64,000 nucleotides of DNA. Source: Streptacidiphilus jiangxiensis (GTDB taxonomy: Bacteria; Actinomycetota; Actinomycetes; Streptomycetales; Streptomycetaceae). The notes beneath the pieces are model-generated. The model was not told where the DNA came from. It made no database searches and saw only the letters and a list, made by a program, of their open reading frames with translations. Location: the NCBI RefSeq assembly GCF_900109465.1, contig NZ_FOAZ01000034.1:1-64000 (forward strand), written 5' to 3'. A program made the translations under genes and the position numbers. The stretch's first letter is position 1. Each line of letters starts with the position of its first letter. Positions 44,993 to 64,000 of the stretch are shown here, one piece after another.

Positions 44993-45010
44993 CCGTGCTC
45001 TCCGCTCCTA

Positions 45011-45764: not shown

Positions 45765-45774
45765 ACCCGGACCT

Positions 45775-45897
45775 GAGGCGAGCGCCGAGGACATCGAGTG
45801 GGCCGACGCGGTGCTCTTCGGCTCACCCACTCGCTTCGGCAACGTCTCCGCAGAGCTCAAGCAGTCCGGTACCGCCGCCCGGCTCAAGGCCGCCTGA
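45775..45897 (+). pseudogene. Remnant of a WrbA-like NAD(P)H:quinone oxidoreductase
   Basis: About 40 codons ending in TGA read EASAEDIEWADAVLFGSPTR, then FGNVSAELKQ. This matches the internal FMN-binding segment of WrbA-type flavodoxin-fold enzymes (usually about 200 residues). The N-terminal flavodoxin loop and everything after LKQ are missing, and no start codon fits. It is a deletion remnant between the SDR and the isomerase genes. Confidence 0.7.
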
Positions 45898-45954
45898 CCG
45901 ATCGTCGCACCAGCACTGTCCACAGCCGTCGCACCAGCATCAGAAGGAGAGACC

Positions 45955-46257: not shown

Positions 46258-46297
46258 TCCCCGAGCGGCTCCCCGCGGGAGCGGATCGTCGCCGACC

Positions 46298-47383: not shown

Positions 47384-47441
47384 GGCTGAGCCTGCTTCCT
47401 GGTGTCCGAACTGCGGATGCGGGTGGTCCGTCAGGCGCGCC

Positions 47442-48353: not shown

Positions 48354-48637
48354 GGGGCGCGCCCCTTACGTGGGTGGCCGAGGGGGATGTGCACCATTAT
48401 TTCCCTCGAATGTGGCGCGGCACGGCGGGGCACGCCCGCCGGCGGCTTCTGTGACGCCACGTGACAGTTGCATGGCGACGACCTGGGGAGCGTTGACGCA
48501 GATCGGCACCACCGGCTGTGATGACATATCAGGACGCCTGGAGCTGCGCGGTCCTGGCGCACATGGCTTGTCATGCGCATGGCTCTCGCTCCGAGTGATC
48601 CTGCCTTCGCTCACCCCGTCGTCCCAGGAGGACCCCC

Positions 48638-50278: not shown

Positions 50279-50299
50279 CCCCCGGGTCCGAGCCGACCC

Positions 50300-50342
50300 T
50301 GCCGTTCCGTCGGGCCGAGCACGCCGGCTCGACGGAACGGCA
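50300..50342 (+). terminator. Strong terminator after the sedolisin gene
   Basis: 13-bp perfect inverted repeat TGCCGTTCCGTCG / CGACGGAACGGCA, extendable to an 18-bp stem (one G-T pair) with a 7-base loop. It begins 22 bases after the stop codon. No T-tract, as is usual in high-GC genomes. Confidence 0.85.
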
Positions 50343-50435
50343 GGACGCGTGGCCGATGCGGCGGCCGGCCCGAGGACGGCGACGCCCAAAGTCCTCCACT
50401 GGTCGAGGCAGGAGTCATGTCCGGGGCGGCACGCG

Positions 50436-50864
50436 TCAGGCGAGCCGGTCAGGGAGCGGGGCCAAGCTGTAGTTGGCCCAGACGTAGGCGTCCATCTGAT
50501 GCTGGTCACCGGACAGGTTGCGGACCCGATCCACCTTGCCGTCGGCGTTGAAGTGCCACACGAGCGCCCACATCGTGTCGACCTTGCCGACTCCCTCGGT
50601 GGACCAGCCGCGGTGGATGTCGACGACGTACTCGTCGTTGGCCTCCAGGAACAGTGGCTCGGCCTGGAAGCCGGCCTTGCCGAGCTGGGTGAAGAACGCC
50701 ACGATCTCCTCGACCCCGTGCTTGGTGCCGGACAACGGATGGTGGCCGGGGATGGTCCACTCGAGGTCGTCGGTCAGGACCTGCCGCATGCCGTCCAGGT
50801 CGTAGGCCGCGTAGGCGGCGAAGAACCTGCTGATGGCCTCGATCTTCGGGTTCGTGCTGGTCAT
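50436..50864 (-). CDS. NTF2-like (SnoaL) family protein
   Basis: 142 residues with the NTF2/SnoaL cone fold: helix ISRFFAAYAAYDLDGMRQVLTDDLEWTIPGHHPLSGTKHGVEEIVAFFTQLGKAG, then strands (FLEANDEYVVDIHRG, TMWALVWHFNADGKVDRVRNLSGDQHQMDAYVW). Relatives are small-molecule binding proteins or isomerases/cyclases; the pocket residues do not define a substrate. It is divergent from a LysR gene across 105 bases and is its likely target. Confidence 0.9.
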   Translation of the reverse strand: MTSTNPKIEAISRFFAAYAAYDLDGMRQVLTDDLEWTIPGHHPLSGTKHGVEEIVAFFTQLGKAGFQAEPLFLEANDEYVVDIHRGWSTEGVGKVDTMWALVWHFNADGKVDRVRNLSGDQHQMDAYVWANYSLAPLPDRLA

Positions 50865-50969
50865 GATGCCGCTTCCCTCGAGTCGTCCGGCGAGCTGTTC
50901 CGCTCACGTGATCAAGGCTGCCGGACCCTGGTCGGGGGCGTCCAATACCTGGTTCCATAACCTGGCGGC

Positions 50970-51881
50970 ATGGACATCGACACCCGCCTGCTGCGCTACT
51001 TCACCGCCGTCGCCCAGGAAGGGAACCTCACCCGCGCCGCGGAGCGCCTGTTCGTCTCGCAGCCGGCGCTCACCAAGCAGATCAAGCAGCTGGAAACCCA
51101 GGTGGGCGTCGAGTTGTTCGTCCGGTCCCGTGCCGGGATGACGCTGACTCCCGCCGGCGCCGCACTGGCGAGCGAGGCCACCGCCGTGCTCACCGCCTGG
51201 CAGGTCGCGTTGCGCCGGACCCGCGCGGCCGCCGGCCGGGCCGCGCGTACGCTGCGGATCGGCTTCGTTGCCAGCGCAGCCAACGAACACACGCAGGAGA
51301 TCGTCGCCGCCTTCGCCCGGCGGCACCCGGGCTGGCGCCTCGAGATGCACCAGTCCGACTGGGCGGACCCCACGGCGGGCCTGGCCGACGGCTCGGTCGA
51401 CGCCGCACTGCTGCGGCTCCCCTTCCCCGGTCAGGAGGCCTTCCGCGTCACGACCTTGCTGACGGAGCCCCGCTGGGTCGCGCTGCCCGCCGGTCACCGG
51501 CTGGCGCAGGTCTCCGAAGTTCCCTTCCACGACCTGTGGGACGAGCCGTTCGTCGCCACCCCGCCGGAGTCCGGCTCGTGGCGTGACTGGTGGCTGGCCG
51601 CCGACGAACGCGACGGCCACCCGGCCCGCATCGGCGTCGTGGCGCACAACCCCGACGAGTGGCTCAACGCCATCGTCAACGGCTACGGCGTCAGCCTCAC
51701 GCCCGCTGCCACCGCCCGCTTCTACCAACGCCCCGGTATCGTCTACCGCCCCGTCACCGGTGTCAGCCCCAGCCACGTCGCGGTCGCGTGGAGCGCGGCC
51801 GCCGACCACGACCGGATCGTCCAGGACTTCGTCCACGCCTGCACGACGGTCTGTGCCGAGCCGGAGGACCCGCGCCCATGA
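50970..51881 (+). CDS. LysR-family transcriptional regulator
   Basis: 303 residues. Winged helix at 1-60 (LLRYFTAVAQEGNLTRAAERLFVSQPALTKQIKQLETQVGVELFVRSRAGMTLTPAG), then a type 2 periplasmic-binding effector domain (LRIGFVASAANEHTQEIVAAFARRHPG, ALLRLPFPGQEAFRVTTLLTEPRWVALPAGHRLA). LysR proteins typically control the divergent gene, here the SnoaL-like protein, in response to a small ligand. Confidence 0.94.
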   Translation: MDIDTRLLRYFTAVAQEGNLTRAAERLFVSQPALTKQIKQLETQVGVELFVRSRAGMTLTPAGAALASEATAVLTAWQVALRRTRAAAGRAARTLRIGFVASAANEHTQEIVAAFARRHPGWRLEMHQSDWADPTAGLADGSVDAALLRLPFPGQEAFRVTTLLTEPRWVALPAGHRLAQVSEVPFHDLWDEPFVATPPESGSWRDWWLAADERDGHPARIGVVAHNPDEWLNAIVNGYGVSLTPAATARFYQRPGIVYRPVTGVSPSHVAVAWSAAADHDRIVQDFVHACTTVCAEPEDPRP

Positions 51882-52027
51882 GCGTCTGAGTTGGGGCGGC
51901 TTCAGCCGGACGCCGACCGTGTCACGGACGGGCCTGGTGGGCTTCCCCCCAGCCGACACCGACCCCACACCGGCGACGACTCAGTGCCGCACGGCCCCCG
52001 CCGCCGACGTCCCGTCGGCCGCGCCGC

Positions 52028-52315
52028 TCACCGTTGCTCGCCCGCCTTCTGCAGGATCCGCTCAGCCTCGCGGACCGCCCACGACGTCCCGGTCTCGTCG
52101 AACTGCCGGTCCCAGGCCCGCTCGAACACGACAAGAAGCCGAGCACCGACGACGCCTGCCGCCGTCCACAGCACGGTGAGCACCGACAGGAACACCAGCA
52201 GCGCGTCACCCCCGCCGACGTGGGCCAGCGAGCCCGCGGCGAACAGGGCACCGCTGACCGCGAACCCGGAGTAGGCGACGATCGCCAGCCCCAGCGCGTA
52301 CGAACGGTGCGTCAC
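52028..52315 (-). CDS. Small two/three-helix membrane protein
   Basis: 95 residues from GTG 52315 (AGGGGG upstream); a weaker in-frame GTG lies at 52363. Hydrophobic segments YALGLAIVAYSGFAVSGALFAAG and ALLVFLSVLTVLWTAAGVVGARLLVV, then a charged amphipathic tail. The GTG overlaps the stop of a short upstream ORF (GTGA). Function unknown. Confidence 0.72.
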   Translation of the reverse strand: MTHRSYALGLAIVAYSGFAVSGALFAAGSLAHVGGGDALLVFLSVLTVLWTAAGVVGARLLVVFERAWDRQFDETGTSWAVREAERILQKAGEQR

Positions 52316-52467
52316 CGCGGCCCCCTGGACGGTCGGGAGGTGAGCCGGGCCAGGCGCGGGCACGTCTCGTCCGAGCCGCGGACCGCATGACGAAGAGCGC
52401 GCCGATCTGCATCGGCATGGCCGATGCCGTGGACGAGCCCCTGGTTCAGGACATCACGGAAAGTCAT
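52312..52467 (-). CDS. Short ORF coupled to the membrane protein
   Basis: 51 codons (MTFRDVLNQGLVHGIGHADADR...) behind a strong GGAGAGG ribosome site, ending in a TGA that overlaps the GTG of the membrane protein gene. It may be a small protein or a leader peptide for translational coupling. It is rich in Arg and His, with no known motif. Confidence 0.45.
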   Translation of the reverse strand: MTFRDVLNQGLVHGIGHADADRRALRHAVRGSDETCPRLARLTSRPSRGPR

Positions 52468-52670
52468 TGTTCCCTCTCCTCCACCCACCAGGGTTACCAC
52501 ACGAAACGCCCACGCAGCAGAGTGAAGGCGGTCGATACCTGCTGGAGTTGCACCGAGCCGCGCACTCCCCGCCCGGGAGCAGATCGCGCATGGATCACGG
52601 GCAGCGAACCAGGGGGCCGCGGCGCAGACCGCGCCACGAACCCCCCTCCCCGCCCTCGACTGGCGCAGTA

Positions 52671-53819
52671 TCAGGCGCACACGCCCGCATCGGCGTCGGC
52701 GTCGGCATCGGCATCGGCATCGGCGTTGGCGTCGGCGTCCGCCAGGGCCCTCACCACCCAGTCCGCTGCCTGCGGCAGCCATTCGCCCTGCGCGTTGCCC
52801 AGGAGGTGGTTCCCGTGCGGGACGAGGAGGAGCTCCCCGGAGGGGAGTTCGGTGCGCACATCGCCCGCGTTCAGAACTCCGGGAATGCGGTCCTCACCCC
52901 CCTCGACCAGCAGGACCGGTCCGGTGAGCTGCTCGGCCAGGCCGGCCAGGTCCACCCGCGCGGCGAAGCTGCGCGCCGCCGCCGGGCCGCCGCAGCGCTG
53001 TGCCAGGGTGGCCGTGACGAAGGGCACCAGACCCGCCCAGTCCAGCCGGCCGGGCCCGCTGACCAACACCGCAGCCCGAAGCCGGCGTTCGCCCGCGGCA
53101 GACTTGGCGGCGAACCAGCCACCCAGGCTCAGGCCCACCACGGCCGACCGCTCGACATCCAGATCGCTCCGCTCGGACAGGGCGTCCAGGGCTCGACCGG
53201 CGATCTGCTGGTACTCGGGCTCGAACGTGCTCGTACCTGCCAGCACGCCCTGTCCCGGCCCGTCGATCGCGAGCACGCCGAGCCCCCGCGACAACAGCGC
53301 CTCGATCACGGCATGGAACTCCTCCTTGCTGGAGTCCAGCCCGGGCACCACCAGTGCCACCGGAACGCGCCCGCCCTCGGCCGGCCGCCGCAACCACCCC
53401 GCGAAGCCCTCGCCCTCGACCCGCTCGGCCGCCGGGTCCAGCAGGGCCAACGCCCGACCCATGGCCCGGTCCGCCTCCAGCGCGAGCCGGGCCACCGCCG
53501 CGCGGTCGGGGTGCGGGAGCAGCGTGCCGAAGTGGAACCAGCGCGCGGCCATCCGGTACGCCGCCCCCGCCGTCTGCGCCGTCGCGGCTCGCTCACCTAC
53601 CGTCAGGTGCTCTCGGCCGGACGCCTCGCAGCGCACGGGCCAGTCCAACAGGGAGGTCAGGTCGGCCGTCACCCGGTCGTACTCGTACACGTCCAGCCCT
53701 GCACCGTGCGCCCGTGGCCGGTTCCCGGCGACGAAGGCGGCCGCCAGCCCGGGCGTCTCCAGGAACGCCAGGTCGACCTGCTCCCCTGGGCCTGCCGGTC
53801 CCCCGTTTGCTGATGTCAC
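52671..53819 (-). CDS. Alpha/beta hydrolase with Ala-Asp repeat tail
   Basis: 382 residues from GTG 53819 (GGAAGGA upstream). The N-terminal helical region and core resemble FrsA/2,6-dihydroxypseudooxynicotine hydrolase-type esterases: oxyanion area VPGLDSSKEEFHAVIEAL, nucleophile VVGLSLGGWFAA (GxSxG), acid VEGGEDRIPG and His in LVPHGNHLLGN. The C-terminus ends in an (Ala-Asp)n repeat (ADADANADADADADADAG) encoded by a hexanucleotide repeat. It is divergent from a MarR gene whose operator lies between them. The substrate is unknown. Confidence 0.9.
   Translation of the reverse strand: MTSANGGPAGPGEQVDLAFLETPGLAAAFVAGNRPRAHGAGLDVYEYDRVTADLTSLLDWPVRCEASGREHLTVGERAATAQTAGAAYRMAARWFHFGTLLPHPDRAAVARLALEADRAMGRALALLDPAAERVEGEGFAGWLRRPAEGGRVPVALVVPGLDSSKEEFHAVIEALLSRGLGVLAIDGPGQGVLAGTSTFEPEYQQIAGRALDALSERSDLDVERSAVVGLSLGGWFAAKSAAGERRLRAAVLVSGPGRLDWAGLVPFVTATLAQRCGGPAAARSFAARVDLAGLAEQLTGPVLLVEGGEDRIPGVLNAGDVRTELPSGELLLVPHGNHLLGNAQGEWLPQAADWVVRALADADANADADADADADADAGVCA
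52688..52745 (-). repeat. Hexanucleotide repeat encoding an (Ala-Asp)n tail
   Basis: About nine tandem GCRTCG units (coding strand GCCGAY) inside the 3' end of the hydrolase gene. Each unit adds Ala-Asp in frame, so slippage would change the tail length without breaking the frame. Confidence 0.85.
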
Positions 53820-53868
53820 AACAGATCCTTCCGATGGTTCCCCTGTCCGATCTTCAACACATGGATCA

Positions 53869-53886
53869 TCATCAAAGCATTGATGA
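53869..53886. promoter_or_regulatory. MarR-type operator between hydrolase and MarR genes
   Basis: TCATCAAAGCATTGATGA, an 18-bp near-perfect palindrome (8 of 9 paired positions), in the 111-base divergent gap. Size and AT-richness are typical of MarR operators. Confidence 0.7.
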
Positions 53887-53930
53887 CTGTCAACCAGCTT
53901 GTCTCTCGCCAAGCCTTGTATGGTGGGATC

Positions 53931-54383
53931 ATGGGAATGCCCGCGAACGAGCGCCTCGGACTCGACATCCGACGCGCTGAGCAGGAGCTGATGGCCGCCA
54001 AGCGGGCCGCGGTGGAACCGGCCGGACTCACCGTGCCGCAGTACGCCACCCTCCATGTGCTGGCCGAGAACGCCGGGATCAGCGGGGCGGCTCTGGCCCG
54101 CGCCTGCCAGGTCACCCCGCAGGCCATGGCCGTGGTGCTGAAGAACCTCACCGACCGTGGCCTGGTCGAACGCGCGCCCCACCCCTGGCACGGCAACGTC
54201 CTGGAGACGCGCCTCACGCCCGCCGGCCACACCGCCCTGACCCTCGCCGACGCCAGGGCCTGCGCCATCGAACACGCCATCGCCGAGGAACTGACCGAGG
54301 CCGAACGCACCCAACTGCGCGAACTCCTGGCCCGCTGCAACCACGCGGTCCGCCGCGCCGCACAGGCCCAGGCCGAGGCCTGA
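53931..54383 (+). CDS. MarR-family transcriptional regulator
   Basis: 150 residues from ATG 53931 (GGTGGG upstream); the upstream ATGs in this frame fall in the operator. Winged helix at about 35-100 (YATLHVLAENAGISGAALARACQVTPQAMAVVLKNLTDRGLVERAPHPWHGNVLETRLTPAG). It is divergent from the alpha/beta hydrolase and probably represses it and itself through the palindrome at 53869-53886. Confidence 0.93.
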   Translation: MGMPANERLGLDIRRAEQELMAAKRAAVEPAGLTVPQYATLHVLAENAGISGAALARACQVTPQAMAVVLKNLTDRGLVERAPHPWHGNVLETRLTPAGHTALTLADARACAIEHAIAEELTEAERTQLRELLARCNHAVRRAAQAQAEA

Positions 54384-54478
54384 CACGGCGTCGACTCAGG
54401 AGTTGTCCGAAGGCGCACACGGCCCCGATGAGATCGGTGGGCGGCTTCGCGTCGGACGAGGAGCGGTTAGCATCCCGC

Positions 54479-54991
54479 ATGGCCACGCACTGGACGAACA
54501 GTTCCGAGACCTTCGCGCTGCTTCTTCGGCGCCAGGGACTCGACCCGGACGCGGTCGACGACGTCACGCGGGCATGGTCCGCGTTCCAGGAGTTCGTCCA
54601 GACGGACATCGACGGGATCGAGCCGGCGGAGGACGACGGCGACGGGTTCAGCGTGCAGTGCGGCCGCTGGGCCTGGCACGACAACCGTCCCGCGCTCGCC
54701 TTCACCCGGCAGTTCGCGGTGCGCGACGAGAGCGACCGGGACGACGGCTTCGGGCAGACGCAGCTGTGGAGCGTGGAGCTCGTCCTGTTCTTCTCCGACG
54801 CCCCGGCCGGGGCCGACCTCGACGCGACGGCGTGGTCCACCGGCATGGGCTTCGACTTCGATCCCATCGGACCGCAACGGGCCGCGGCCCTGATCCGGAC
54901 CGCCGCGGTCATCGCGACGCTCCCACACGTCAGCGCGGTGTGGGCGGCGATCCCGGTCGGCAGCAGTCTCCGCCTGGAACGCGCGGACTGA
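54479..54991 (+). CDS. Hypothetical acidic protein
   Basis: 170 residues from ATG 54479; an in-frame ATG at 54428 is possible. The protein is acidic (DDGDGF, DESDRDDGFGQ) with strands around SVQCGRWAWHDNRPALAFTRQFAV and LWSVELVLFFSDAP. No domain is recognised. It resembles small actinobacterial hypothetical proteins, but I cannot name a family. Function unknown. Confidence 0.75.
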   Translation: MATHWTNSSETFALLLRRQGLDPDAVDDVTRAWSAFQEFVQTDIDGIEPAEDDGDGFSVQCGRWAWHDNRPALAFTRQFAVRDESDRDDGFGQTQLWSVELVLFFSDAPAGADLDATAWSTGMGFDFDPIGPQRAAALIRTAAVIATLPHVSAVWAAIPVGSSLRLERAD

Positions 54992-55068
54992 TCCGCGGGA
55001 TCTCCGCCGTCCGCCGCGCGCCCGTGGTCCTGAGGCGGTCGCCCCAGGTCCCGGCTCACGCCAGTGGA

Positions 55069-55218
55069 TCAGGCTCCCCAGCCGGAGTCGGCGGGGGCGA
55101 CGGCCTGGGGTGTGGCGGACGCCTGGGAGGTGGTGGGGGCCGGCGCGTGGCCGGGGGCGGTGAGGAGCAGGGCCAGGGCGGCGAGGGCGGCGATGAGGAG
55201 TCTCTGCGCGAAAGCCAT
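55069..55218 (-). CDS. Candidate small exported peptide
   Basis: A 49-codon ORF. The sequence MAFAQRLLIAALAALALLLT is a textbook signal peptide with an AxA-like cleavage region (GHAPA). The predicted mature part is about 23 residues, Ala/Pro/Thr-rich and ending DSGWGA. The ribosome site is weak (AGGA, 11 bases away). It lies directly downstream of the LuxR-type regulator on the same strand and beside the carbamoyl/sulfo cluster. It could be a signalling peptide, a small secreted factor or a precursor; none is shown. Confidence 0.55.
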   Translation of the reverse strand: MAFAQRLLIAALAALALLLTAPGHAPAPTTSQASATPQAVAPADSGWGA

Positions 55219-55245
55219 GATCTTTTGATTCCTGTCTGAGGGGTG

Positions 55246-55261
55246 GCGGGCGGAGGCCCGC
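55246..55261 (-). terminator. Hairpin between LuxR-type regulator and the small peptide gene
   Basis: GCGGGC-GGAG-GCCCGC, 6-bp arms and a 4-base loop, 97 bases after the regulator stop and 28 bases before the small ORF. It is either a terminator or a leader structure for the peptide gene. Confidence 0.45.
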
Positions 55262-55357
55262 TCTCATTGTTTCGAAGCGATGAGGCTGGTCAGGGACGTG
55301 TGGCCGGTCCGTTTCCCGCAGTGCGCAAAGCAGAACCCGGCGCCGCCCGGGCAGGCG

Positions 55358-56344
55358 CTACTCGTCGCGGAACCAGCCCTCGGCGTGGACCAGATAGCCG
55401 AGTTGGGCGCGGCTGCGGCTGCCCAGCTCCTCGGAGACGCGCTGGATGTGCTTGGAGACCGTGCGGGTGCTGATGCCGAGCTTGTGGGCGATGCCTGCGT
55501 CCGTGCACCCGTCGACGACCAGGCGGATGACGTCGCGCCGGACCCGGTCCGTGAGCAGTTCCGGTCTTCCACCGCCCGGTTCGACGGAGAGGGTCACCGC
55601 GTGGTCCCACATGTACTCGAAGACCTTCACCAGGTAGTCGACCAGGGACGGGGTGTTGATGACGAGTGCGGAGTGCTGCCGGTCCGGTCCGGCGGGGACG
55701 AAGGCGATGGCGCGGTCGCAGATGATCAGCCGGTCGAAGACCTGGTTGATGGTGCGCACCTGCGCGCCGTGCTCGGAGACCCGCTGGATGTAGGCGCGGG
55801 TGGGCGGATGGTTGCGCACGGTGTGCTGGTAGAGCGTGCGCTGTCGGACGCCGCGGGCGGACAGTGCCAGGTCGCGGGTGAGCGCCTGCTCGAGGATCTC
55901 GGCCGGGCGCCCGCCGCCGGGTTGGGCGGTGAGCAGCTCGAAGCGGCAGGAGTCGACGGCCTCCGCCAGGGCGGTGGAGATGGTCGCGGCGCCGCTGAGC
56001 TGGCGTATCGCGGGGCGACTGCGGTCCAGGAACTCGCGGTACACCGGTTCCGCCTCGGCCACGGCCCGGCGCAGTTTCGACAGCTGCTCCTGTTGCTCGG
56101 AGATCGCCTCCTCCAGCGGCCGGGAGAGGTCGGCCGCGGCGATGTCGGGGGGCATGGGGACGACGGTGTTCGGGTCGTCGGCGAGTGCGTGGACGAGCCC
56201 GAGCCGGGTGAGGCACTTGGGGGTCGCCGCGGTCGGCGCCCCGCCGTCGGCCCAGGCCTGCTGGTAGACCCGCATGCCGGCCTCGCAGATGCCGGCTCCG
56301 TTCCGCGTGCAGTCGCCCGCGGCATCTGCGTCGCCTGCTTGCAT
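55358..56344 (-). CDS. LuxR-type (HTH) regulator with coiled-coil/PLD-like sensor region
   Basis: 328 residues. An N-terminal TrmB-like helix region with a Cys pair (GICEAGMRVYQQAWADG) is followed by a coiled coil (LEEAISEQQEQLSKLRRAVAEAEPVYREFL). The middle domain is seen in Streptomyces cluster-linked regulators (FELLTAQPGGGRPAEILEQALTRDLALSARGVRQRTLYQHTVRNHPPTRAYIQRV). The C-terminal LuxR helix-turn-helix is LLTDRVRRDVIRLVVDGCTDAGIAHKLGISTRTVSKHIQRVSEELGSRSRAQLGYLVH. Regulators of this layout often control adjacent specialised-metabolite genes. It is divergent from the carbamoyltransferase operon, its probable target. Confidence 0.9.
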   Translation of the reverse strand: MQAGDADAAGDCTRNGAGICEAGMRVYQQAWADGGAPTAATPKCLTRLGLVHALADDPNTVVPMPPDIAAADLSRPLEEAISEQQEQLSKLRRAVAEAEPVYREFLDRSRPAIRQLSGAATISTALAEAVDSCRFELLTAQPGGGRPAEILEQALTRDLALSARGVRQRTLYQHTVRNHPPTRAYIQRVSEHGAQVRTINQVFDRLIICDRAIAFVPAGPDRQHSALVINTPSLVDYLVKVFEYMWDHAVTLSVEPGGGRPELLTDRVRRDVIRLVVDGCTDAGIAHKLGISTRTVSKHIQRVSEELGSRSRAQLGYLVHAEGWFRDE

Positions 56345-56706
56345 GCGTACCCCACCCCTTCCGGTTGACGCCGTGCGTGGGCACGAACGTCCTCACGTGT
56401 CGCTCCCGCTTCCTCTGCTCGGCAGAATCGAGTTCGCCAACGGCAGTGATCATGAGGTTCGGCGACGTGCTTGGTGCTGTCAATTGCGGAATCGGCACCT
56501 CCAGGTCGCTTGCGCACTGCCAATGGCGGCAAACACGGACAACAGCTGCCCAGGCGACTCCTGTCGCATTTACACCCTGAATGGCTCGACCCCTCAGGTG
56601 ATGACAGGCCGTCGGCCCTGCATGCGGCGAGACGGAACGGGCATGCAGCGCCCTCCCCCGGGATCACGGGCGGACGGGGCAATCGGAACACTCGGGAGAA
56701 TTTGTC
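56345..56706. promoter_or_regulatory. Divergent promoter region of the sulfo/carbamoyl cluster
   Basis: 362 bases, noticeably less GC-rich than the flanking genes (AT-rich patches around 56450-56600). On the minus strand TTGACA (about 56480) is a possible -35 for the regulator. GGGAGAA is the ribosome site of the carbamoyltransferase. I see no convincing gene or strong palindrome in it. Confidence 0.45.
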
Positions 56707-58425
56707 ATGATCACCGCTGGCTTGAAGCTGACCCAGAGCGGCGGCATAGCCCTGCTCAACGACGGAAAGCTCGAGTTCAACATCGAGATGCAGAAGCTTG
56801 CCAACGGTGCCCGCTACAGCAACGTTGACGAACTTGACGATCTCGTCGGAATTCTGGGCGGTTTCGGATACCGTCTCGACGACATCGGCACCTGGGCCGT
56901 CGACGGCTGGGACGGCGCCGAGTTCGGGCGGCTGGCCCGGCTGTCCGGCGGTTCCCCCGTCGAGCTGCTGGTCGCGCCCTACCGCGAGACGGCGCAGGTG
57001 CCCGACCCGCTGCAGCCGGGCCGACTGGGCGAGCTGCTGATCGGCGGCCGCAGCAAGAAGTACGAGAGCTACGTGCACGTGGGCAGCCACCTGGCCGCCG
57101 CCTACTGCACCAGCCCGTTCGCCCGCCGCGGCGAGGCCTCGATGGTCATGGTCTGGGACGGCGGCTGCTTCCCGCGCCTGTACTGCGTGGACGCGGACGG
57201 CCGGATCGAGCCGGGCGGCGAGGTCTTCCCGCTGATCGGCCACACCTACTCGATGGCCTCGCAGCACTGGGGCCCGTTCAAGCGAACCGCCAAGTCGCGC
57301 AACGTCGACGACCTCTCGGTGGCCGGCAAGATGATGGCCTACATCGCCCTCGGCACGGCCCGCGAGGAGATCAAGAAGGTCTTCCGCGAGGAGTTCCACG
57401 CCCACTTCGAGGCCGACACGCCGCAGGTGCACCGCTACCGCGCCGAGATCATCGGCTGCGGCAGCACCGGCGAGGGCTCGCACGCGTATGTGCACGCCTT
57501 CCTCGACGACGTGCACGCCCGGACCAACGCCCTCGGCGTCTCCGACGAGGACGTGCTGGCCAGCGTGCACGAGTTCCTGGAGGAGATGCTGATCGAGCGT
57601 CTCGCCGCCAAGATCCGCGCCTGGAAGGGCGACGAGCCCTGGAACCTGTGCTTCGCGGGCGGCTGCGCGCTCAACATCAAGTGGAACAGCGCACTGCGGG
57701 CGCACCCGATCATCAAGGCCATGTGGGTGCCGCCGTTCCCGGACGACTCCGGCTCCGCGATCGGCACGGCCGCCCTGGCCGCGGCCCGCGGCGAGGGCCT
57801 GCGGCCGATCGAGTGGGGCACCCGGCTGGGCCCGGCCCTGGACCGCACCCCGCACGTGCCGCAGGGCTGGACGGTGTCCCCCTGCCGCCCGGAGGAGCTG
57901 GCCCGGCTGCTGCACCGCACCGGCCAGCCGGCGGTCGTGCTGAACGGCCGCGCCGAGCTCGGCCCGCGCGCGCTCGGCGGCCGCAGCATCATCGCCCCGG
58001 CCGTCGACACCACGATGAAGAAGGCGCTGAACGACGCCAAGTCGCGGGAGTACTACCGGCCGGTCGCTCCCATCTGCCTGGAGGAGCACGCGCCGAAGAT
58101 CTTCGACCCGGGCACGCCCGACCCGCACATGCTCTTCGAGCACTGGGTCCGGCCCGAGTGGGTGGACCGCCTGCCGGCGATCATGCACCTGGACGGCACG
58201 GCCCGGCTGCAGACCGTCAACCAGCACGACGACCCCACGCTCTTCGCGATCCTGCGCGAGTACCACAAGTGGAGCGGCGTCCCGGTGCTCTGCAACACCA
58301 GCGCCAACTACAACGGCCGCAGCTTCTTCCCCGACGCGGCGTCCGCCATGGAGTGGGGCCAGCTCGACCTGGTCTGGTCCGAAGGCGTGCTCTACCGGCG
58401 CGAGTTCGGCTCGGCCTCCGCCTGA
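56707..58425 (+). CDS. O-carbamoyltransferase (TobZ/NovN/HypF-C-like)
   Basis: 572 residues. N-terminal Kae1/YrdC-linked ASKHA-type domain with metal/substrate residues H124 and H128 (YVHVGSHLAAAY) and D151 (MVWDGG). The C-terminal carbamoyltransferase domain contains LCFAGGCALNIKWNSALR, VLNGRAELGPRALGGRSIIAPA and YYRPVAPICLEEHA, with a late CNTSANYNGR block. Such enzymes transfer a carbamoyl group from carbamoyl phosphate via carbamoyl-AMP to a hydroxyl of a natural product. The opening motif (GLKLTQSGGIALL) lacks the usual His-Asp pair. It heads the cluster. Confidence 0.93.
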   Translation: MITAGLKLTQSGGIALLNDGKLEFNIEMQKLANGARYSNVDELDDLVGILGGFGYRLDDIGTWAVDGWDGAEFGRLARLSGGSPVELLVAPYRETAQVPDPLQPGRLGELLIGGRSKKYESYVHVGSHLAAAYCTSPFARRGEASMVMVWDGGCFPRLYCVDADGRIEPGGEVFPLIGHTYSMASQHWGPFKRTAKSRNVDDLSVAGKMMAYIALGTAREEIKKVFREEFHAHFEADTPQVHRYRAEIIGCGSTGEGSHAYVHAFLDDVHARTNALGVSDEDVLASVHEFLEEMLIERLAAKIRAWKGDEPWNLCFAGGCALNIKWNSALRAHPIIKAMWVPPFPDDSGSAIGTAALAAARGEGLRPIEWGTRLGPALDRTPHVPQGWTVSPCRPEELARLLHRTGQPAVVLNGRAELGPRALGGRSIIAPAVDTTMKKALNDAKSREYYRPVAPICLEEHAPKIFDPGTPDPHMLFEHWVRPEWVDRLPAIMHLDGTARLQTVNQHDDPTLFAILREYHKWSGVPVLCNTSANYNGRSFFPDAASAMEWGQLDLVWSEGVLYRREFGSASA

Positions 58426-58518
58426 GCGACGGAGGGTCCCGCGCCGCCTCCGCCACACCCGTAAGCAGCCCCACTGCCCCACTGCCCCGCGACGGGGCGT
58501 TCTTGAGGAGTACCGCAC

Positions 58519-59481
58519 GTGCAACAAGCACCCCGGACCATGGTCGTCTCGCTGCAGAAGACCGGCACCCACCTGATGCAGGGTCTGATGCTGGAACTGG
58601 GCTACAAGATGACCGGCGTGCCGCGTCCCGCGCCGGACAACACCCCCGAGTTCGACGACGAGGCCCTGCTGCAGATCGCCTCGATCACCCGCTCCCGCGA
58701 GGAGTACGCCGAACTGCAGACGGTCAGCTCGGCCGAGCTGCGGCGCCGCACCCAGGACGACTGGGCCGCACTGGGCTGGAGCTGGCAGCGTCGGCTCGGG
58801 CAGCGCGTGGTCAACCGCTACGGTCAGACCCGTCTCGACCACGCCGACTCGGTGATCACCAACCCGCACATCAACTACAGCCGCTTCGCCGACACCCCGC
58901 CCGGGCTGTGCTGGATGTACCACGAACTCGACCTGGACAAGGTGGACGGCACCTTCCTGCAGGAGTGGGTGTCCACCGGGTCGCCGCGGCTGATCTTCAA
59001 CTACCGCGACCCCCGCGACACCGTGGTCTCCATGATCAACTTCCTGGAGGGCAAGACCGCCGCCGGCTACGGCAACTTCTACGAGTTCGACATCTTCCAC
59101 CGCGTGCTCACCTCGATGGACACCTGGGAGGAGAAGATCGACTACGCGTTGCGCGACACCTCCTTCCTCGGCCGCGACCAGTTCGAGCGCTCGCTGTGGA
59201 TGCTGCGGCACCCGGACGTGTGCAAGGTCAGCTACGAGGACCTGGTCGGCCCCAACGGCGGTGGCACGCGCGAGCGCCAGCTCGACGCCGTGAGCCGGCT
59301 GCTCACCCACATCGGCAGCGACCTGGACCCGGAGAAGGTGGCCGACACGGTCTACAACCAGAACTCCTGGAGCTTCTTCAAGGGCCGCACCGGCACCTGG
59401 CGCGAGTACTTCAACGAGCGCAACCTGGCCCGCTTCAACGAGCAGTTCGGCGACCTGCTCCAGCAGTTCGGCTACGAGTGA
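58519..59481 (+). CDS. PAPS-dependent sulfotransferase
   Basis: 320 residues, GTG start. The PAPS-binding motifs are complete: 5'-phosphosulfate loop S11-LQKTGTH18, 3'-phosphate motif Y162-RDPRDTVVSM, and C-terminal KGRTGTW (288-294), the KGxxGxW signature of cytosolic-type sulfotransferases. It transfers sulfate to a hydroxyl or amine of a small molecule. The cluster also encodes APS kinase and sulfate adenylyltransferase, which make its PAPS donor. Its stop shares a base with the ATP-grasp ATG (TGATG). Confidence 0.94.
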   Translation: MQQAPRTMVVSLQKTGTHLMQGLMLELGYKMTGVPRPAPDNTPEFDDEALLQIASITRSREEYAELQTVSSAELRRRTQDDWAALGWSWQRRLGQRVVNRYGQTRLDHADSVITNPHINYSRFADTPPGLCWMYHELDLDKVDGTFLQEWVSTGSPRLIFNYRDPRDTVVSMINFLEGKTAAGYGNFYEFDIFHRVLTSMDTWEEKIDYALRDTSFLGRDQFERSLWMLRHPDVCKVSYEDLVGPNGGGTRERQLDAVSRLLTHIGSDLDPEKVADTVYNQNSWSFFKGRTGTWREYFNERNLARFNEQFGDLLQQFGYE

Positions 59482-60854
59482 TGAAGCCCCGCGCGTTCGT
59501 GCTGCTCGGCGGGCTGCGGGTGATCCTGCGCAACCGGCTCTACCTCGACGAGCTGTCCCGCCGGGGACTGGCGATCCTGGTGCTGACCGGGGAGGAGTGG
59601 CGTGCCGAGGCGGCCCGGCAACTGGCCACCGAGGACGGCCCGATCACGCAGATCGCCGAGATCGGCTTCGCCCGCGGCACCGTGGGCGTCGAGGGCGGCT
59701 TCACCGCCGACACCGTCGCGCAGGTCCTCGCGTGGCGCGCCCGGTACGAGCTCTCCGGGGTCCTCGCCGCCGGCGAGATGCTGGTGGAACAGACCGGTGT
59801 CGTCGCCGACCTCCTCGGCCTGCCGTCCCCCGGGCTGCGCGCGACCCGCGTGTGCCGCAACAAGTACCTGCAGCGCGCCTACCTCGCCGGGCTGAGCCCG
59901 GCGGCGGTGGTGCTGCCGCCGGGCGGGCGGGCCGAGGCCGCTGCCGAGGCCGGTGCCTCCCTGTCCTTCCCGGCCGTGCTCAAGCCCTCAGGTCGGCGCT
60001 CCAGTTCGGGAGTGCGCACCGTGGCCGACCCCGCCGAGCTGGCGGCCTGCCTGGCCGACTACCCGGCCGAGGAGACGCTGCTGGTGGAGGAGTACGTCCA
60101 CGGCCCGGAGTACTCGGTCGAGGCGCTGGTCGACAACGGCCGCGTGGTCTTCGAGTCGGTGACCGCCAAGGGCACCAACGAGGGCGGCGCCGGCCGCTTC
60201 GTGGAGCTCTCGCACACCGTCCCCGAGCCGCCCGGTCCGGCGCGCGACGCGCTGCTCGCCGCCAACCGCACCGTGGTGGCCGCCCTCGGCTTCGGCTCCG
60301 GGGTCATCCACAGCGAGCTGCGACTGACCCCGGACGGCCGGGCGCTCCTGATGGAGGCCGCGGCCAGGACACCCGGCGACGGCATCCTGCCGCTGTACCA
60401 CCTGGCGACCGGACACGCGTTGGAGCCGGACATCATCGCCCTGGCCCTCGGCGAGCCGGTGGACCACCCCACCCCCACCCGCTGTGCGCGCCAGGTCTAC
60501 CTGGAGACCCCGCCCGGTGTCCTCCAGGACGTGCGGATCCACCTCGACGGCGCCGCCGAACCGCTCTGGGCGGCCGACGGCGAGGCCTGGCCGGTGATGT
60601 CGCCGGGCCGGCCCGGCGACGCCCCGGCGCTGCGCGCGGTGCTGGTGCTGCAGGAACCGGGCGGCAGCGTGGTCGGCGCGTTCGAGGAGTCCGGGGACCG
60701 GGTGGTCACCTTCCTCATCGACGCGGCGACCCCGCAGGAGCTCGACCAGTACGAGGCCGTGGTGCGACAGGCGATCGAGGTCACCATTGCACCGGCCGCC
60801 ACATCGGCCGACGCCTCGGTCGGCGCACCGGTCGGCGCACCGGTCGGCCTCTGA
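59481..60854 (+). CDS. ATP-grasp ligase
   Basis: 457 residues; ATG overlaps the sulfotransferase stop by one base. N-terminal pre-ATP-grasp domain (VLLGGLRVILRNRLYLDELSRRG), ATP-grasp core (FPAVLKPSGRRSSSGVRTV, LLVEEYVHGPEYSVEALV, IHSELRLTPDGRALLMEAAARTPGD with the Mg ligands) and a C-terminal domain ending in a VGAPVGAPVG repeat. Such enzymes join a carboxylate, via acyl phosphate, to an amine, for example forming dipeptides or amides. It is the only scaffold-building enzyme in the visible cluster; substrates are unknown. Confidence 0.92.
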   Translation: MKPRAFVLLGGLRVILRNRLYLDELSRRGLAILVLTGEEWRAEAARQLATEDGPITQIAEIGFARGTVGVEGGFTADTVAQVLAWRARYELSGVLAAGEMLVEQTGVVADLLGLPSPGLRATRVCRNKYLQRAYLAGLSPAAVVLPPGGRAEAAAEAGASLSFPAVLKPSGRRSSSGVRTVADPAELAACLADYPAEETLLVEEYVHGPEYSVEALVDNGRVVFESVTAKGTNEGGAGRFVELSHTVPEPPGPARDALLAANRTVVAALGFGSGVIHSELRLTPDGRALLMEAAARTPGDGILPLYHLATGHALEPDIIALALGEPVDHPTPTRCARQVYLETPPGVLQDVRIHLDGAAEPLWAADGEAWPVMSPGRPGDAPALRAVLVLQEPGGSVVGAFEESGDRVVTFLIDAATPQELDQYEAVVRQAIEVTIAPAATSADASVGAPVGAPVGL

Positions 60855-60894
60855 CGCGGGCGCGGACGAGGACGAGAAAGAGAGAGACGAGAAC

Positions 60895-61155
60895 ATGTGG
60901 ATCATCGAGCTCGCCTTCGGCGAGTCCGCCGAGCGCCTCGCCGCCAGGCCGGCGCACCGGGACAAGCTCACCGCCCTGCACGCGCAGGGCCAGGTGCTGC
61001 TGGCCGGCCCGTTGGCCGACGACTCCGGCGCGGTCATCGTGCTGGACGTGCCGGACCGCGAAGCGGTGGACCGGATCCTGACGGCCGACCCCTACTTCGC
61101 CACCACCGGGGTCACCGTCGTCGCGGTGCGCGAATGGAAGCCCTTCCTGCGGTGA
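60895..61155 (+). CDS. YCII-related protein
   Basis: 86 residues with a ferredoxin-like YCII fold (MWIIELAFGESAERLAARPAHRDKLTALHAQGQVLLAGPLADDSGAVIVLDVPDREAVDRILTADPYF). The His and Asp typical of YCII-type proteins are present (AHRDKL, DPYF). Free-standing members include dehydrochlorinases and helper or binding proteins of metabolic clusters. Its stop overlaps the GTG of the MFS gene (GTGA), so it is an integral part of the operon. Confidence 0.88.
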   Translation: MWIIELAFGESAERLAARPAHRDKLTALHAQGQVLLAGPLADDSGAVIVLDVPDREAVDRILTADPYFATTGVTVVAVREWKPFLR

Positions 61156-62498
61156 ACCTCATCAACCAGTCGCCAGCTGCGCCCACGGCCCCACCGCCAC
61201 GGCGGTTGTGGGCGCTGCCCGTCTTCCAGAAGCTCTTCGTCGGGGACGCCGCAGCCCGGGTCGGCTACCAGGTGACCCTGTTCCTGCTGCCGTTGTTGGT
61301 GGTCACCCGACTGCACGGCAGCGGTTCGCAGGCGGGGCTCGTCTCCGGCTCCCAGTTCGTCCCGGTGCTGCTCTTCTCGCTCGGCGCCGGCGTGCTGGCG
61401 GACCGCGCACCCACCCGTCGGCTCATCCTGGCCGGCACGCTGGCCAGAGGCGCGGCGCTCGGCGCGCTGGGGCTGATGTGCGCGCTCACCGGGGTGACCT
61501 TCTGGGCGCTGCTCGCGACCGCGTTCGTGGTCGGCACGGGCAGCGTCGTCTACGACGTGGGCTACCAGGCCGGCATCCCGAGCCTGCTGCGGCCCGAGGA
61601 ACTGACCCGGGGCAACGCCCTGCTGCAGTCCAGCAACTCGGTGTCGCAGATGGCCGGGCCCGCACTGGCCGGGGTACTGGTCCAGCAGGTCGGCCTGCCG
61701 CTGTCGCTGACGCTCGCCACCGCGCTGTTCGTCGGCGCGTTCGCCGCCTTCTGGCTGCTGCCGCTGGAGCAGGGGCTCGCGTCCGACGACACGGGGGCCG
61801 GGAGCCGGGGCGGAGCCGGCGGCCGCGCCACCGCGGGCCGGGGCCGGTCGGCCCTGGCCGGGCTGCGGTTCACGCTCGGCTGCCGCCCCCTGCGCGACCT
61901 GTGCGTCCAGTCCGGGCTGTTCAACCTGCACGAGGAGGCGTTCCTGACGGCCTTCCTGGTGTACGGGGTGCGCGCCGCCCACCTGACGGCCGGCACGATC
62001 GGCCTGCTCATCGGGTTCGGCAGCATCGGCACCCTGCTCGGCTCGGCCGCCGCCGGTCGCCTGGCCGACCGACGGCACGCCGGCCGCAGCCTGGTCGTGG
62101 GACTGGTCGGAGCCTCGGCCGGCTTCCTGATCGGCCCGCTGCTCTCCTCCCACGTCCCGACGATCCCGCTCTACGGGACCGCCTTCCTCCTCAACGGCTT
62201 CGCTCTCGGCCAGTACAACGTGTACGCGGTCAGCATGCGGCAGGCCATCCCGCCCAAGCGGTTCCTCGGGTCCGCCACGGCCGGGTACCGCCTGGTCTCG
62301 CTCGGCCTCGCACCCGTCGGCAGCCTCCTCGGCGGCTGGCTCGCCGACCGGCTCACCGCGGGCTCGGCCCTGTACGTGATCGCGGTCTCGATGACCGTCA
62401 CTTCTCTGCTCATCCTCGCCTCCCCGATCCGCCGCATCCGGCGGGTGGAGGACGCATCGGCCCTGGGAGGGCGACACCATGACGACGACTCGGACTGA
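61152..62498 (+). CDS. MFS exporter (enterobactin/macrolide efflux-like)
   Basis: 448 residues from GTG overlapping the YCII stop. Twelve helices with motif A variants (GVLADRAPTRRLILAG; GRLADRRHAGRS) and YQAGIPSLLRPEELTRGNALLQSSNSVSQMAGPALAGVL, typical of the MFS_3/EntS-type exporter group found in biosynthetic clusters. A Gly/Ala-rich loop lies between TM6 and TM7. It likely exports the cluster product and may confer self-resistance. The 3' end overlaps cysC by 20 bases. Confidence 0.92.
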   Translation: MNLINQSPAAPTAPPPRRLWALPVFQKLFVGDAAARVGYQVTLFLLPLLVVTRLHGSGSQAGLVSGSQFVPVLLFSLGAGVLADRAPTRRLILAGTLARGAALGALGLMCALTGVTFWALLATAFVVGTGSVVYDVGYQAGIPSLLRPEELTRGNALLQSSNSVSQMAGPALAGVLVQQVGLPLSLTLATALFVGAFAAFWLLPLEQGLASDDTGAGSRGGAGGRATAGRGRSALAGLRFTLGCRPLRDLCVQSGLFNLHEEAFLTAFLVYGVRAAHLTAGTIGLLIGFGSIGTLLGSAAAGRLADRRHAGRSLVVGLVGASAGFLIGPLLSSHVPTIPLYGTAFLLNGFALGQYNVYAVSMRQAIPPKRFLGSATAGYRLVSLGLAPVGSLLGGWLADRLTAGSALYVIAVSMTVTSLLILASPIRRIRRVEDASALGGRHHDDDSD

Positions 62499-63060
62499 GG
62501 CCCGCGACGCGGCGCCGACCTGCTGCGGCTGCGGGGCGACGGTGTGGCTGACCGGCCTGCCCAGCGCCGGGAAGACGACGATCGCCTCCGCGCTGGCCGA
62601 GCGGCTGCGCGCGGACGGCCGACGGGTGGAGATCCTCGACGGCGACGAGGTCCGCGCCGCCCTCTCGGCCGACCTCGGCTTCTCCCGCGAGGACCGGCGC
62701 GCCCACATCGCACGGGTCGGCATGATCGCCGAGGTCCTCGCGCGCAACGGGGTGCTCGTCCTCGTGCCGGTGATCGCCCCCTACGCCGACGCGCGGGCGG
62801 CGATCCGCCAGCGGCACGTGAGCAGCGGCACCGCGTACTTCGAGGTGCACGTCGCGACCCCGGTGGACGTCTGCTCCGAGCGGGACGTGAAGGGCCTGTA
62901 CGCCAAGCAGGCCGCCGGTGAGATCTCCGGTCTGACCGGCGTGGACGACCCCTACGAGGTGCCCACGTCACCCGACCTGAGGCTGCGTGCGGACATCGAG
63001 TCGGTGGCCGAGTCCGCCTCGGCGCTGCTGAACTTCCTGGCTGAGAAGGCGTTCGTCTAG
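62479..63060 (+). CDS. cysC: Adenylylsulfate (APS) kinase
   Basis: 193 residues. P-loop G26-LPSAGKT33, ILDGDEVRAALSADLGFSREDRRAHIARVG and ISGLTGVDDPYEVP are APS-kinase signatures. It phosphorylates APS to PAPS. An unusual Cys cluster (C15-C-G-C18) precedes the P-loop. In ordinary sulfate assimilation many actinobacteria go from APS directly to sulfite, so a cysC here, overlapping an exporter gene and next to a sulfotransferase, implies dedicated PAPS supply. Confidence 0.95.
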   Translation: MTTTRTEARDAAPTCCGCGATVWLTGLPSAGKTTIASALAERLRADGRRVEILDGDEVRAALSADLGFSREDRRAHIARVGMIAEVLARNGVLVLVPVIAPYADARAAIRQRHVSSGTAYFEVHVATPVDVCSERDVKGLYAKQAAGEISGLTGVDDPYEVPTSPDLRLRADIESVAESASALLNFLAEKAFV

Positions 63061-64000
63061 TGCTCCAGACTTCCACCCCACCCCCGGCGCCACCGCGGTC
63101 CGCACCGACCCGTCTGTCGCACCTGGACGCGTTGGAGGCCGAGGCCGTCCACATCTTCCGCGAGGTGGCGGGCGAGTTCGAGAACCCGGTGATCCTCTTC
63201 TCCGGCGGCAAGGACTCCATCGTCATGCTGCACCTGGCGCTGAAGGCCTTCGCGCCCGCGCCGGTGCCGTTCGCGCTGCTGCACGTGGACACCGGCCACA
63301 ACTTCCCCGAGGTCCTCGCCTACCGCGACCGGGTCGTGGCCGAGCACGGCCTGCGCCTGCACGTCGCCTCCGTCCAGCAGTTCATCGACACAGGACGGCT
63401 GCGCGAGCGCCCCGACGGCACCCGCAACCCGCTGCAGACCGTCCCACTGCTCGACGCCATCGAGACGGGCCGCTTCGACGCCGTCTTCGGCGGCGGCCGC
63501 CGCGACGAGGAGAAGGCCCGCGCCAAGGAACGCGTCTTCTCCCTGCGCGACGAGTTCGGCGCCTGGGACCCGCGCCGCCAGCGCCCCGAGCTGTGGTCGC
63601 TCTACAACGGCCGCCACGCGGTCGGCGAGCACGTGCGCGTCTTCCCGCTGTCCAACTGGACCGAGCTGGACGTGTGGCAGTACATCGAACGCGAGAAGAT
63701 CGACCTCCCCGAGATCTACTACGCCCACGAGCGTGACGTCTTCGCCCGCAACGGCATGTGGCTGACCGCCGGCGAGTGGGGCGGCCCGAAGGACGGCGAG
63801 ACCGTCGAGCGGCGCCTGGTGCGCTACCGCACGGTCGGCGACATGTCCTGCACCGGCGCCGTCGACTCCGACGCCGACACCATCGCCGCGGTGATCACCG
63901 AGATCGCCGCGAGCCGCCTGACCGAACGTGGCGCCACCCGCGCGGACGACAAGATGTCCGAGGCCGCCATGGAGGACCGCAAGCGCGAGGGGTACTTCTA
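63060..64000 (+). CDS. cysD: Sulfate adenylyltransferase subunit 2 (last stop base outside window)
   Basis: 313 residues seen, GTG start sharing a base with the cysC stop. PP-loop SGGKDSIVMLHLALKAF binds ATP; HVDTGHNFPEVLAYRDR, GGGRRDEEKARAKERVFSLRD and FPLSNWTELDVWQYI are typical CysD blocks. The protein ends MEDRKREGYF, the normal CysD terminus, followed by TA at the window edge, so the gene is essentially complete. With a CysN GTPase (expected just downstream) it makes APS from sulfate and ATP. Confidence 0.95.
   Translation, partial: MLQTSTPPPAPPRSAPTRLSHLDALEAEAVHIFREVAGEFENPVILFSGGKDSIVMLHLALKAFAPAPVPFALLHVDTGHNFPEVLAYRDRVVAEHGLRLHVASVQQFIDTGRLRERPDGTRNPLQTVPLLDAIETGRFDAVFGGGRRDEEKARAKERVFSLRDEFGAWDPRRQRPELWSLYNGRHAVGEHVRVFPLSNWTELDVWQYIEREKIDLPEIYYAHERDVFARNGMWLTAGEWGGPKDGETVERRLVRYRTVGDMSCTGAVDSDADTIAAVITEIAASRLTERGATRADDKMSEAAMEDRKREGYF

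Follow-up and report, generated by a model that had tools for sequence, protein, structure and literature searches.

The tailoring genes sxtI, sxtN, and sxtO of the saxitoxin (sxt) cluster encode an O-carbamoyltransferase, a sulfotransferase, and an adenosine 5'-phosphosulfate (APS) kinase, and rhizobia carry extra genes (nodPQ) for 3'-phosphoadenosine 5'-phosphosulfate (PAPS) besides their housekeeping set. A seven-gene cluster of Pantoea agglomerans Eh318, as outlined in PMC4010436, includes a NodU/CmcH carbamoyltransferase, a major facilitator superfamily (MFS) protein, an ATP-grasp protein, a sulfotransferase, and an aminotransferase, and its product is unknown. The account of the ascamycin (acm) cluster in PMC9113183 gives a dedicated sulfotransferase (AcmK) with clustered ATP sulfurylase and APS kinase genes. 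Here we analyze a locus in the genome of Streptacidiphilus jiangxiensis (9.54 Mb in 93 contigs) in which genes for a carbamoyltransferase, a sulfotransferase, an ATP-grasp ligase, and an MFS exporter are followed by genes for PAPS synthesis. Coordinates are those of the window, by which we mean the whole stretch of DNA that was analyzed; it takes in bases 1 to 64,000 of contig C86, which is 64,875 bases long. We conclude that the cluster is real and rare and that it belongs with tailoring clusters that have dedicated PAPS genes. Based on the predicted enzyme classes, its exported product is probably a small amino-acid amide or dipeptide that carries a sulfate and an O-carbamoyl group. The features of the locus are as follows.

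55069 to 55218, minus strand: small exported-peptide open reading frame (ORF) of 49 amino acids (P0009), C terminus APADSGWGA, candidate DSxWG-group peptide
55358 to 56344, minus strand: LuxR-type regulator (P0008), GerE domain PF00196, related to the azsR-position regulator
56707 to 58425, plus strand: NodU/CmcH-type O-carbamoyltransferase (P0001), PF02543 and PF16861
58519 to 59481, plus strand: PAPS-dependent sulfotransferase (P0002), PF00685 (32.4 bits, cut-off 22)
59481 to 60854, plus strand: AzsJ-like ATP-grasp ligase (P0003), PF13535
60895 to 61155, plus strand: YCII-domain protein (P0004), PF03795
61152 to 62498, plus strand: predicted MFS exporter (P0005), PF07690/PF05977
62479 to 63060, plus strand: cysC, APS kinase (P0006), TIGR00455 above cut-off
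63060 to 64001, plus strand: cysD, ATP sulfurylase small subunit (P0007), TIGR02039 above cut-off, stop at contig position 64001
64004 to contig end 64875, plus strand: cysN ORF, first 290 codons, cut by the contig end

All nine ORFs up to cysD were borne out. Pfam domains match eight of the nine proteins, the 49-amino-acid peptide being the exception, and the only NCBIfam matches above cut-off are those of cysC and cysD. A first-pass annotation of this stretch had described a run of seven genes in one direction, from the carbamoyltransferase gene to cysD, with overlaps of 1 to 20 bases. The run itself holds, and overlaps are present at four of its six junctions (in order, +93, -1, +40, -4, -20, and -1 bases), the other two being gaps of 93 and 40 bases. 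The LuxR-type regulator and the small exported peptide that were placed ahead of the operon are both present on the minus strand, and the cysN that was to be looked for beyond position 64000 is there as an ORF that runs off the contig end. The GC content at third codon positions is 0.94 to 0.97 across the seven operon genes.

In order to find relatives of the locus, we scanned 84,980 species genomes with the sulfotransferase as the query, a search that is sensitive to close relatives only. One of the 17 stretches recovered encodes a relative, and it comes from Streptomyces regalis NRRL 3151 (locus L006). The S. regalis locus has a carbamoyltransferase (78% identity), sulfotransferase (69 to 74%), ATP-grasp protein (59%), YCII protein (66%), MFS protein (55 to 57%), and cysC (68%) in the same order as in the window, with one extra FemAB/GNAT-like gene between the MFS gene and cysC; FemAB/GNAT-like proteins are another family able to form peptide bonds. 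Two divergent LuxR fragments lie upstream. Sixteen genes predicted in window positions 40001 to 55050 have no match in the 20.8 kb of L006, which indicates that the likeness stops at the left edge of the cluster, and no cysD match was found in those 20.8 kb. Based on the gene order common to the two loci through cysC, which bears out the synteny that the first-pass annotation had looked to, we conclude that the window genes are one co-inherited, dedicated cluster. As deposited, the S. regalis sulfotransferase gene (L006 10001 to 10839) lacks about 33 to 40 residues around 133 to 171, including most of the YRDPRD motif, and has frame changes, and the MFS gene (L006 12663 to 13867) also has a frame change in the draft; these changes may reflect either decay of the cluster or draft error.

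Our searches of genomes drawn from the same family scored the best three to five candidates in many genomes, and the counts are therefore lower bounds. P0002-like sulfotransferases (E ≤ 1e-20) are present in at least 14 of 394 genomes, P0003-like ATP-grasp proteins (E ≤ 1e-30) in at least 46 of 394, and P0001-like carbamoyltransferases (E ≤ 1e-40) in at least 136 of 389. Full-length carbamoyltransferases at least 56% identical to P0001 occur at no fewer than 12 further loci in 11 genomes. None of these 11 is among the 14 with a P0002-like sulfotransferase. A P0003-like ATP-grasp gene is present in two of the 11 (G118 and G133), at a separate place in each. Some genomes have a carbamoyltransferase and a sulfotransferase match, but with the carbamoyltransferase match weaker or partial (e.g., G044, G227, G265, and G319). 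Across a draw of 396 genomes from the phylum, the only carbamoyltransferase match at E ≤ 1e-60 is from the window's own genome. Two other loci, L021 (9554 to 19998, genome G154) and L020 (2196 to 10162, genome G265), combine a sulfotransferase relative at 45% identity with an ATP-grasp gene of another kind, cysD, cysN or cysNC, and a CysQ-like gene, for which the Pfam domain Inositol_P was verified in L021 only. L021 also carries DDAH-like and ornithine N-oxygenase-like genes.

The claim that the cluster has its own PAPS supply stands for cysC and cysD and, as far as its first 290 codons, for cysN, the rest of which lies beyond the contig end. The first-pass annotation had left room for this being the genome's only cysD, at a housekeeping locus; a second cysD is present on contig C31, in a locus that reads sulfite-reductase-like gene, cysH, cysC, cysD, and the start of cysN (the first two named by reading of the translations). 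Aligned at the contig ends and followed backward, the two copies match at every one of the final 1,483 bases, differ at four positions in 63117 to 63392, and diverge before 63117 (cysD codon 20). The part of cysD that is common to both is 99.4% identical within the genome, compared with 92.9, 91.6, 89.2, and 88.4% to four genomes of the same genus, which suggests recent copying. We infer that the cluster cysD-cysN pair was copied recently, and almost without change, from the housekeeping-type pair. This near-identity, together with the S. regalis locus having no cysD match, indicates that the pair is a late addition to the cluster. Both contigs end at the identical cysN base, which we read as an assembly break at a repeat, where small differences between the copies may be hidden. 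A search of the genome for cysN turned up both truncated ends and otherwise just distant relatives, and not the 3' half of the gene; the 290 codons present are 79% identical to the gene after cysD in L020.

The cluster cysC is not such a recent copy. The identity between it and the C31 cysC is 74% across 175 amino acids, and in a tree of 13 rows the window and S. regalis sequences fall outside a group of 10 rows (92/93, not starred), which comprises every one of the 8 housekeeping rows together with 2 from other clusters. A recent extra cysD-cysN pair next to the cluster's own cysC fits a demand for PAPS. This locus appears to show a cluster acquiring a private PAPS supply by copying housekeeping cysD-cysN, as with rhizobial nodPQ.

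The carbamoyltransferase P0001 matches PF02543 (196 bits) and PF16861 (148 bits), both above cut-off, and has the motifs HVGSHLAAA at 124 and GPRALGGRS at 419; the family meanings given to motifs in the operon proteins are those generally attached to them. Solved structures include only distant relatives, and the best named relatives in a plasmid collection are rhizobial NodU proteins, at about 50% identity over the full length. In a tree of 29 rows, P0001 groups with the S. regalis protein and four proteins at 76 to 80% identity (100/100). This group is nested among 14 actinobacterial sequences (98/98), and the nearest branch to those 14 is formed by three NodU rows (sister relationship, 87/87). 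P0001 is not NodU proper, since it scores 649.8 bits against the NCBIfam NodU model NF041651 (cut-off 1000) and is placed beside NodU and not inside it. The rhizobial loci also place such genes together: Rhizobium tropici CIAT 899 has a run of nodA-like, nodB, nodC, nodS, nodU, nodI, permease, sulfotransferase, and cysD genes, and in Cupriavidus taiwanensis cysC follows nodU.

In the 20-kb stretches that hold the 12 genes for 56 to 80% carbamoyltransferases, ATP-grasp-ligase-like genes occur at three loci: L151, where the assignment is confirmed by Pfam; L152, where it is by similarity; and L157, whose gene has no Pfam match at 1e-8 and which also holds a 2-oxoglutarate-iron (2OG-Fe) dioxygenase gene. 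Among the loci of the 76 to 80% carbamoyltransferases (L146 to L149), the two that were scanned (L146 and L147) have nonribosomal peptide synthetase (NRPS) and polyketide synthase (PKS) genes and a class-III aminotransferase domain, and the remaining two neighborhoods are similar by gene sizes only. The adenylation-domain motifs near these carbamoyltransferases gave no substrate call. At a further locus (L074, 6346 to 13650, on a plasmid of Streptomyces sp. NBC_01237), a 45% NodU-like carbamoyltransferase is encoded near two similar 73-amino-acid precursor-like ORFs, with ABC-transporter-like and signal-peptidase-like genes nearby (named by reading of translations only); L074 is a possible locus for a carbamoylated ribosomally synthesized and posttranslationally modified peptide.

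P0002 is predicted to be a PAPS sulfotransferase based on its family score and on the presence of both PAPS-binding motifs, KTGTHL at 14 and YRDPRD at 162, as these motifs are generally understood. A phmmer search of the PDB with P0002 gave no matches. A profile of three rows, two of which are P0002 itself, gave weak matches to sulfotransferases in general, among them plant SOT16 and SOT18 (E = 1.3e-4 and 2.3e-4). The best match between P0002 and the R. tropici sulfotransferase covers 17 amino acids (E = 0.031), and the protein is not NodH-like. AlphaFold2 models of P0002 and P0003 have confidence (pLDDT) values of 43.8 and 41.9, which are too poor for use. The motifs GLPSAGKTT and SGGKDS are present in CysC and CysD, respectively.

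The first-pass annotation had taken the ATP-grasp protein P0003 for an amide- or dipeptide-forming ligase, and this assignment is sustained at the level of homology. Its best solved relative is the L-amino acid ligase 3vot (E = 3.4e-13), the motifs EYSVE, HSELR, and EAAARTPGD are present, and one further ATP-grasp pattern has no match as written. P0003 is 51% identical over 442 amino acids to the azsJ-position protein of Streptomyces lavendulae pSA3239, a plasmid that has the azs gene order tabulated in PMC10445470 with this ATP-grasp gene at the azsJ place. Based on this comparison, which is with the pSA3239 protein and not with Streptomyces fragilis AzsJ, P0003 appears to share ancestry with azsJ-position proteins. 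We compared 24 ATP-grasp loci, 20 from the 46 genomes (hand-picked from the upper part of the list, one being the window's own genome) and four from plasmids. The window and S. regalis proteins pair with each other (100/98), and their sister group is a clade of 17 (99/99), with support of 91/93 at the joining fork. In the stretches analyzed, genes for lysine N-oxygenase and cupin-MetRS proteins, the markers of hydrazinoacetate-type clusters, are present at 10 of the 17 loci, creE/creD-like genes at 1, and neither at 6. Of these six, L059 carries azs-like genes of other types, and chorismate-type genes are found in L064. The marker queries were taken from L075 and L055, which therefore match themselves, and the domains were verified in L060 and L055. 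These markers and the azs order of pSA3239 indicate that most members of the ligase group accompany clusters whose products are unusual amino acids, e.g., glutamine analogues, and ATP-grasp genes are described in PMC12154649 as common in clusters for N-N bonds. The window's own genome has lysine N-oxygenase and cupin-MetRS genes near a 39% relative of P0003 that lies outside the clade of 17 (L070, G000:C41:276500-296499).

Taken together, the enzyme classes are consistent with the following pathway, in which the substrates, the order of steps, and the stability of the sulfate are inferred. Because the operon as read holds no scaffold-making gene, primary amino acids are the likeliest substrates. 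The carbamoyltransferase would modify a primary amino acid at its hydroxyl group; the simplest candidate is L-serine, which would give O-carbamoyl-L-serine, a glutamine look-alike in the same shape class as azaserine. The ATP-grasp ligase would join the carbamoylated amino acid to a second amino acid or an amine, the sulfotransferase would add sulfate from PAPS made by ATP sulfurylase (CysD-CysN) and APS kinase (CysC), and the MFS protein would export the product. The cluster would be turned on by the LuxR protein, possibly in concert with the small exported peptide. We consider some amino-acid amide or peptide bearing both sulfate and carbamate the probable outcome; O-carbamoylserine specifically is a doubtful suggestion. 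If the pathway is as proposed, three enzymes and a pump would be enough to turn primary amino acids into a peptide-like metabolite with sulfate and carbamate groups, and the pathway would be easy to rebuild and test in a laboratory host. The AzsJ group of ATP-grasp enzymes, unexplained in azaserine clusters, would also gain a context without diazo machinery.

Several observations weigh against this proposal. The region past 64875 could hold scaffold genes. The closest relatives of P0001 (76 to 80%; genomes G361, G298, G334, and G209) are from genomes without a P0002-like sulfotransferase, and the two neighborhoods scanned (G361 and G298) contain NRPS and PKS genes, and a larger acceptor is therefore conceivable. 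In the deposited draft, the genes for the S. regalis sulfotransferase and MFS protein change frame. Finally, the authors of PMC10445470 speculate that AzsJ and AzsA may not act in azaserine synthesis, on the grounds that some such clusters lack AzsJ/AzsA.

Other explanations fit parts of the evidence. It is unlikely, in our view, that the sulfate is a leaving group and absent from the product, as in the precedents of aziridine antibiotics and sorghum strigolactones. A hydroxyl would then be activated and the sulfate expelled, by a second protein (perhaps the YCII protein) or by the substrate's own neighboring amine, to give a double bond, an aziridine, or another strained ring. The YCII gene is kept two genes after the sulfotransferase gene in both the window and S. 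regalis, and the sulfotransferase profile touches retinol dehydratase (E = 0.0029), a sulfotransferase-fold enzyme named for elimination; however, no aziridine-synthase gene was recognized, and a stable and a transient sulfate look the same in sequence. We give no more weight to the idea that a sugar, nucleoside, or oligosaccharide receives the carbamate and the sulfate, as in Nod factors, with the ATP-grasp protein as an accessory. Although the sister relationship to NodU, the R. tropici nod run, and the C. taiwanensis cysC are in keeping with such an acceptor, no NodA/B/C-like or glycosyltransferase domain is present in the nine proteins, the sulfotransferase does not resemble NodH, and the ATP-grasp gene is kept in S. 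regalis.

Still less probable is that the cluster tailors the product of another locus in the same genome, e.g., an NRPS or PKS product. The NRPS/PKS genes that adjoin the two scanned 76 to 80% carbamoyltransferase genes elsewhere, and the end of the contig just downstream, would allow this, but S. regalis keeps the cluster genes while the 16 upstream window genes are unmatched in its locus. A chance gathering of unrelated or housekeeping neighbors, which the first-pass annotation had raised against itself, has a probability close to negligible. The near-identity of cysD-cysN to the housekeeping-type copy is what speaks for it, and it is set against the S. regalis order, on account of which we reject the housekeeping-neighbor reading, the presence of the second cys locus on C31, and the coupling of genes on one strand with four of six junctions overlapping. 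A cluster that makes its own sulfated and carbamoylated amino-acid derivative is the explanation that we prefer.

The regulator P0008 is 40% identical over 211 amino acids to the product of the azsR-position gene of pSA3239, where the azsA-position gene encodes a small exported peptide with three DVGWN units; the tail of the window's 49-amino-acid ORF is ADSGWGA. LuxR relatives of P0008 are found in 389 of 394 genomes. We searched around these genes with a filter for small ORFs that lie within 700 bp of the LuxR gene, start hydrophobic, and have a [D/E]..W tail. The filter was composed after inspection of the first 30 LuxR loci (window included), and only the second set of 40 is therefore an independent test. 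In the first 30 loci, a peptide ORF is present at 12, compared with 1 of 30 in reversed flanks (Fisher P = 0.001). In the second set, made up of lower-scoring loci, the values are 12 of 40 and 1 of 40 (Fisher P = 0.0015), and all 12 peptides lie upstream of and divergent from the LuxR gene. When the sets are pooled, the D..W-tail peptide is present at 24 of 70 loci versus 2 of 70 reversed flanks, and the stricter motif DSxW followed by G, S, or T at 17 of 70 versus 0 of 70; the motif is repeated within five peptides. Among 61 other loci (1,210 kb), there are 12 filter matches. Three of them come from the window and from two plasmids with the azs order, and one more (L067) has a like tail. Examples are as follows.

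LuxR/peptide pairs: window, 55069 to 55218 with 55358 to 56344; L090, L093, L095, L097, L098, L104, L108, L183, and L185
Further LuxR/peptide pairs: L187, L188, L190, L205 to L207, and L211; L075

It is possible, if somewhat doubtful, that AzsR-like LuxR regulators answer to a secreted peptide encoded next to them and carrying at least one DSxWG unit, in a pheromone-like loop that would be an undescribed switch. With the same tentative standing, this switch would serve the window cluster through the 49-amino-acid ORF as well as many other actinobacterial clusters, including azaserine-type ones. Against a peptide signal, none of the ten closest LuxR relatives (L080 to L089) has a peptide by the filter, some loci are close kin and hence not independent, one of the two L102 matches and the L202 match look like chance, and the window peptide lies downstream of the LuxR gene on the same strand and is not divergent. 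Pfam and NCBIfam scans of seven such peptides gave no family match, and a search of the open-licence PMC literature for LuxR-peptide pairing returned nothing apt. The association is a testable candidate for peptide signaling in Streptomyces relatives. A MarR-family regulator (53931 to 54383, plus strand) is encoded upstream of the cluster, and the ORF that follows it (54428 to 54991) has no Pfam match.

Compared with described systems, the locus shares parts with several. The likeness to azs loci, as represented by pSA3239, lies in the ATP-grasp protein (51%), the LuxR regulator (40% over 211 amino acids), and a small exported ORF, which at the azsA place contains D-V-G-W units. In contrast, hydrazinoacetate, NRPS, and P450 genes have no counterpart among the nine window proteins. 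Membership in the azaserine clusters is rejected, since there is no lysine N-oxygenase, cupin-MetRS hydrazine synthetase, or Cy-A-CP NRPS among the nine proteins and the MFS protein has no meaningful similarity to the azsK-position MFS protein. In the acm pathway as described, the product is a nucleoside sulfamate, and a carbamoyltransferase and an ATP-grasp protein are not named for acm in that account. The first-pass annotation had pointed to saxitoxin as the parallel, and the likeness there, as generally known, is one of enzyme classes; the window operon has in addition the ATP-grasp, YCII, and cysD-cysN genes. Saxitoxin is probably not the nearest parallel, and we put the rhizobial run and the Pantoea set in its place.

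In the open-licence PMC literature on this gene set, on aziridine-type sulfotransferases, and on O-carbamoylserine clusters, the Pantoea set is the only close one among the papers that matched. By its description, it brings together a carbamoyltransferase, an MFS protein, an ATP-grasp protein, and a sulfotransferase, as does the window, and it differs in having pnp1B, pnp1C, and an aminotransferase gene, with no cys genes named in that description. The R. tropici stretch from nodU to cysD has a carbamoyltransferase of the sister clade (about 50%), an exporter, a sulfotransferase, and cysD. It differs from the window in that its exporter is of the ATP-binding cassette (ABC) type and not MFS and in that neither ATP-grasp nor YCII, both present in the window, is annotated in its gene table, which is incomplete. 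The window cluster is not a cluster for decorating Nod factors, since NodA/B/C-like backbone domains are missing from its nine proteins and its sulfotransferase is unlike NodH. Based on the comparisons made by sequence, we conclude that, of the known gene sets compared, the rhizobial nodU-to-cysD run is the closest to the S. jiangxiensis cluster.

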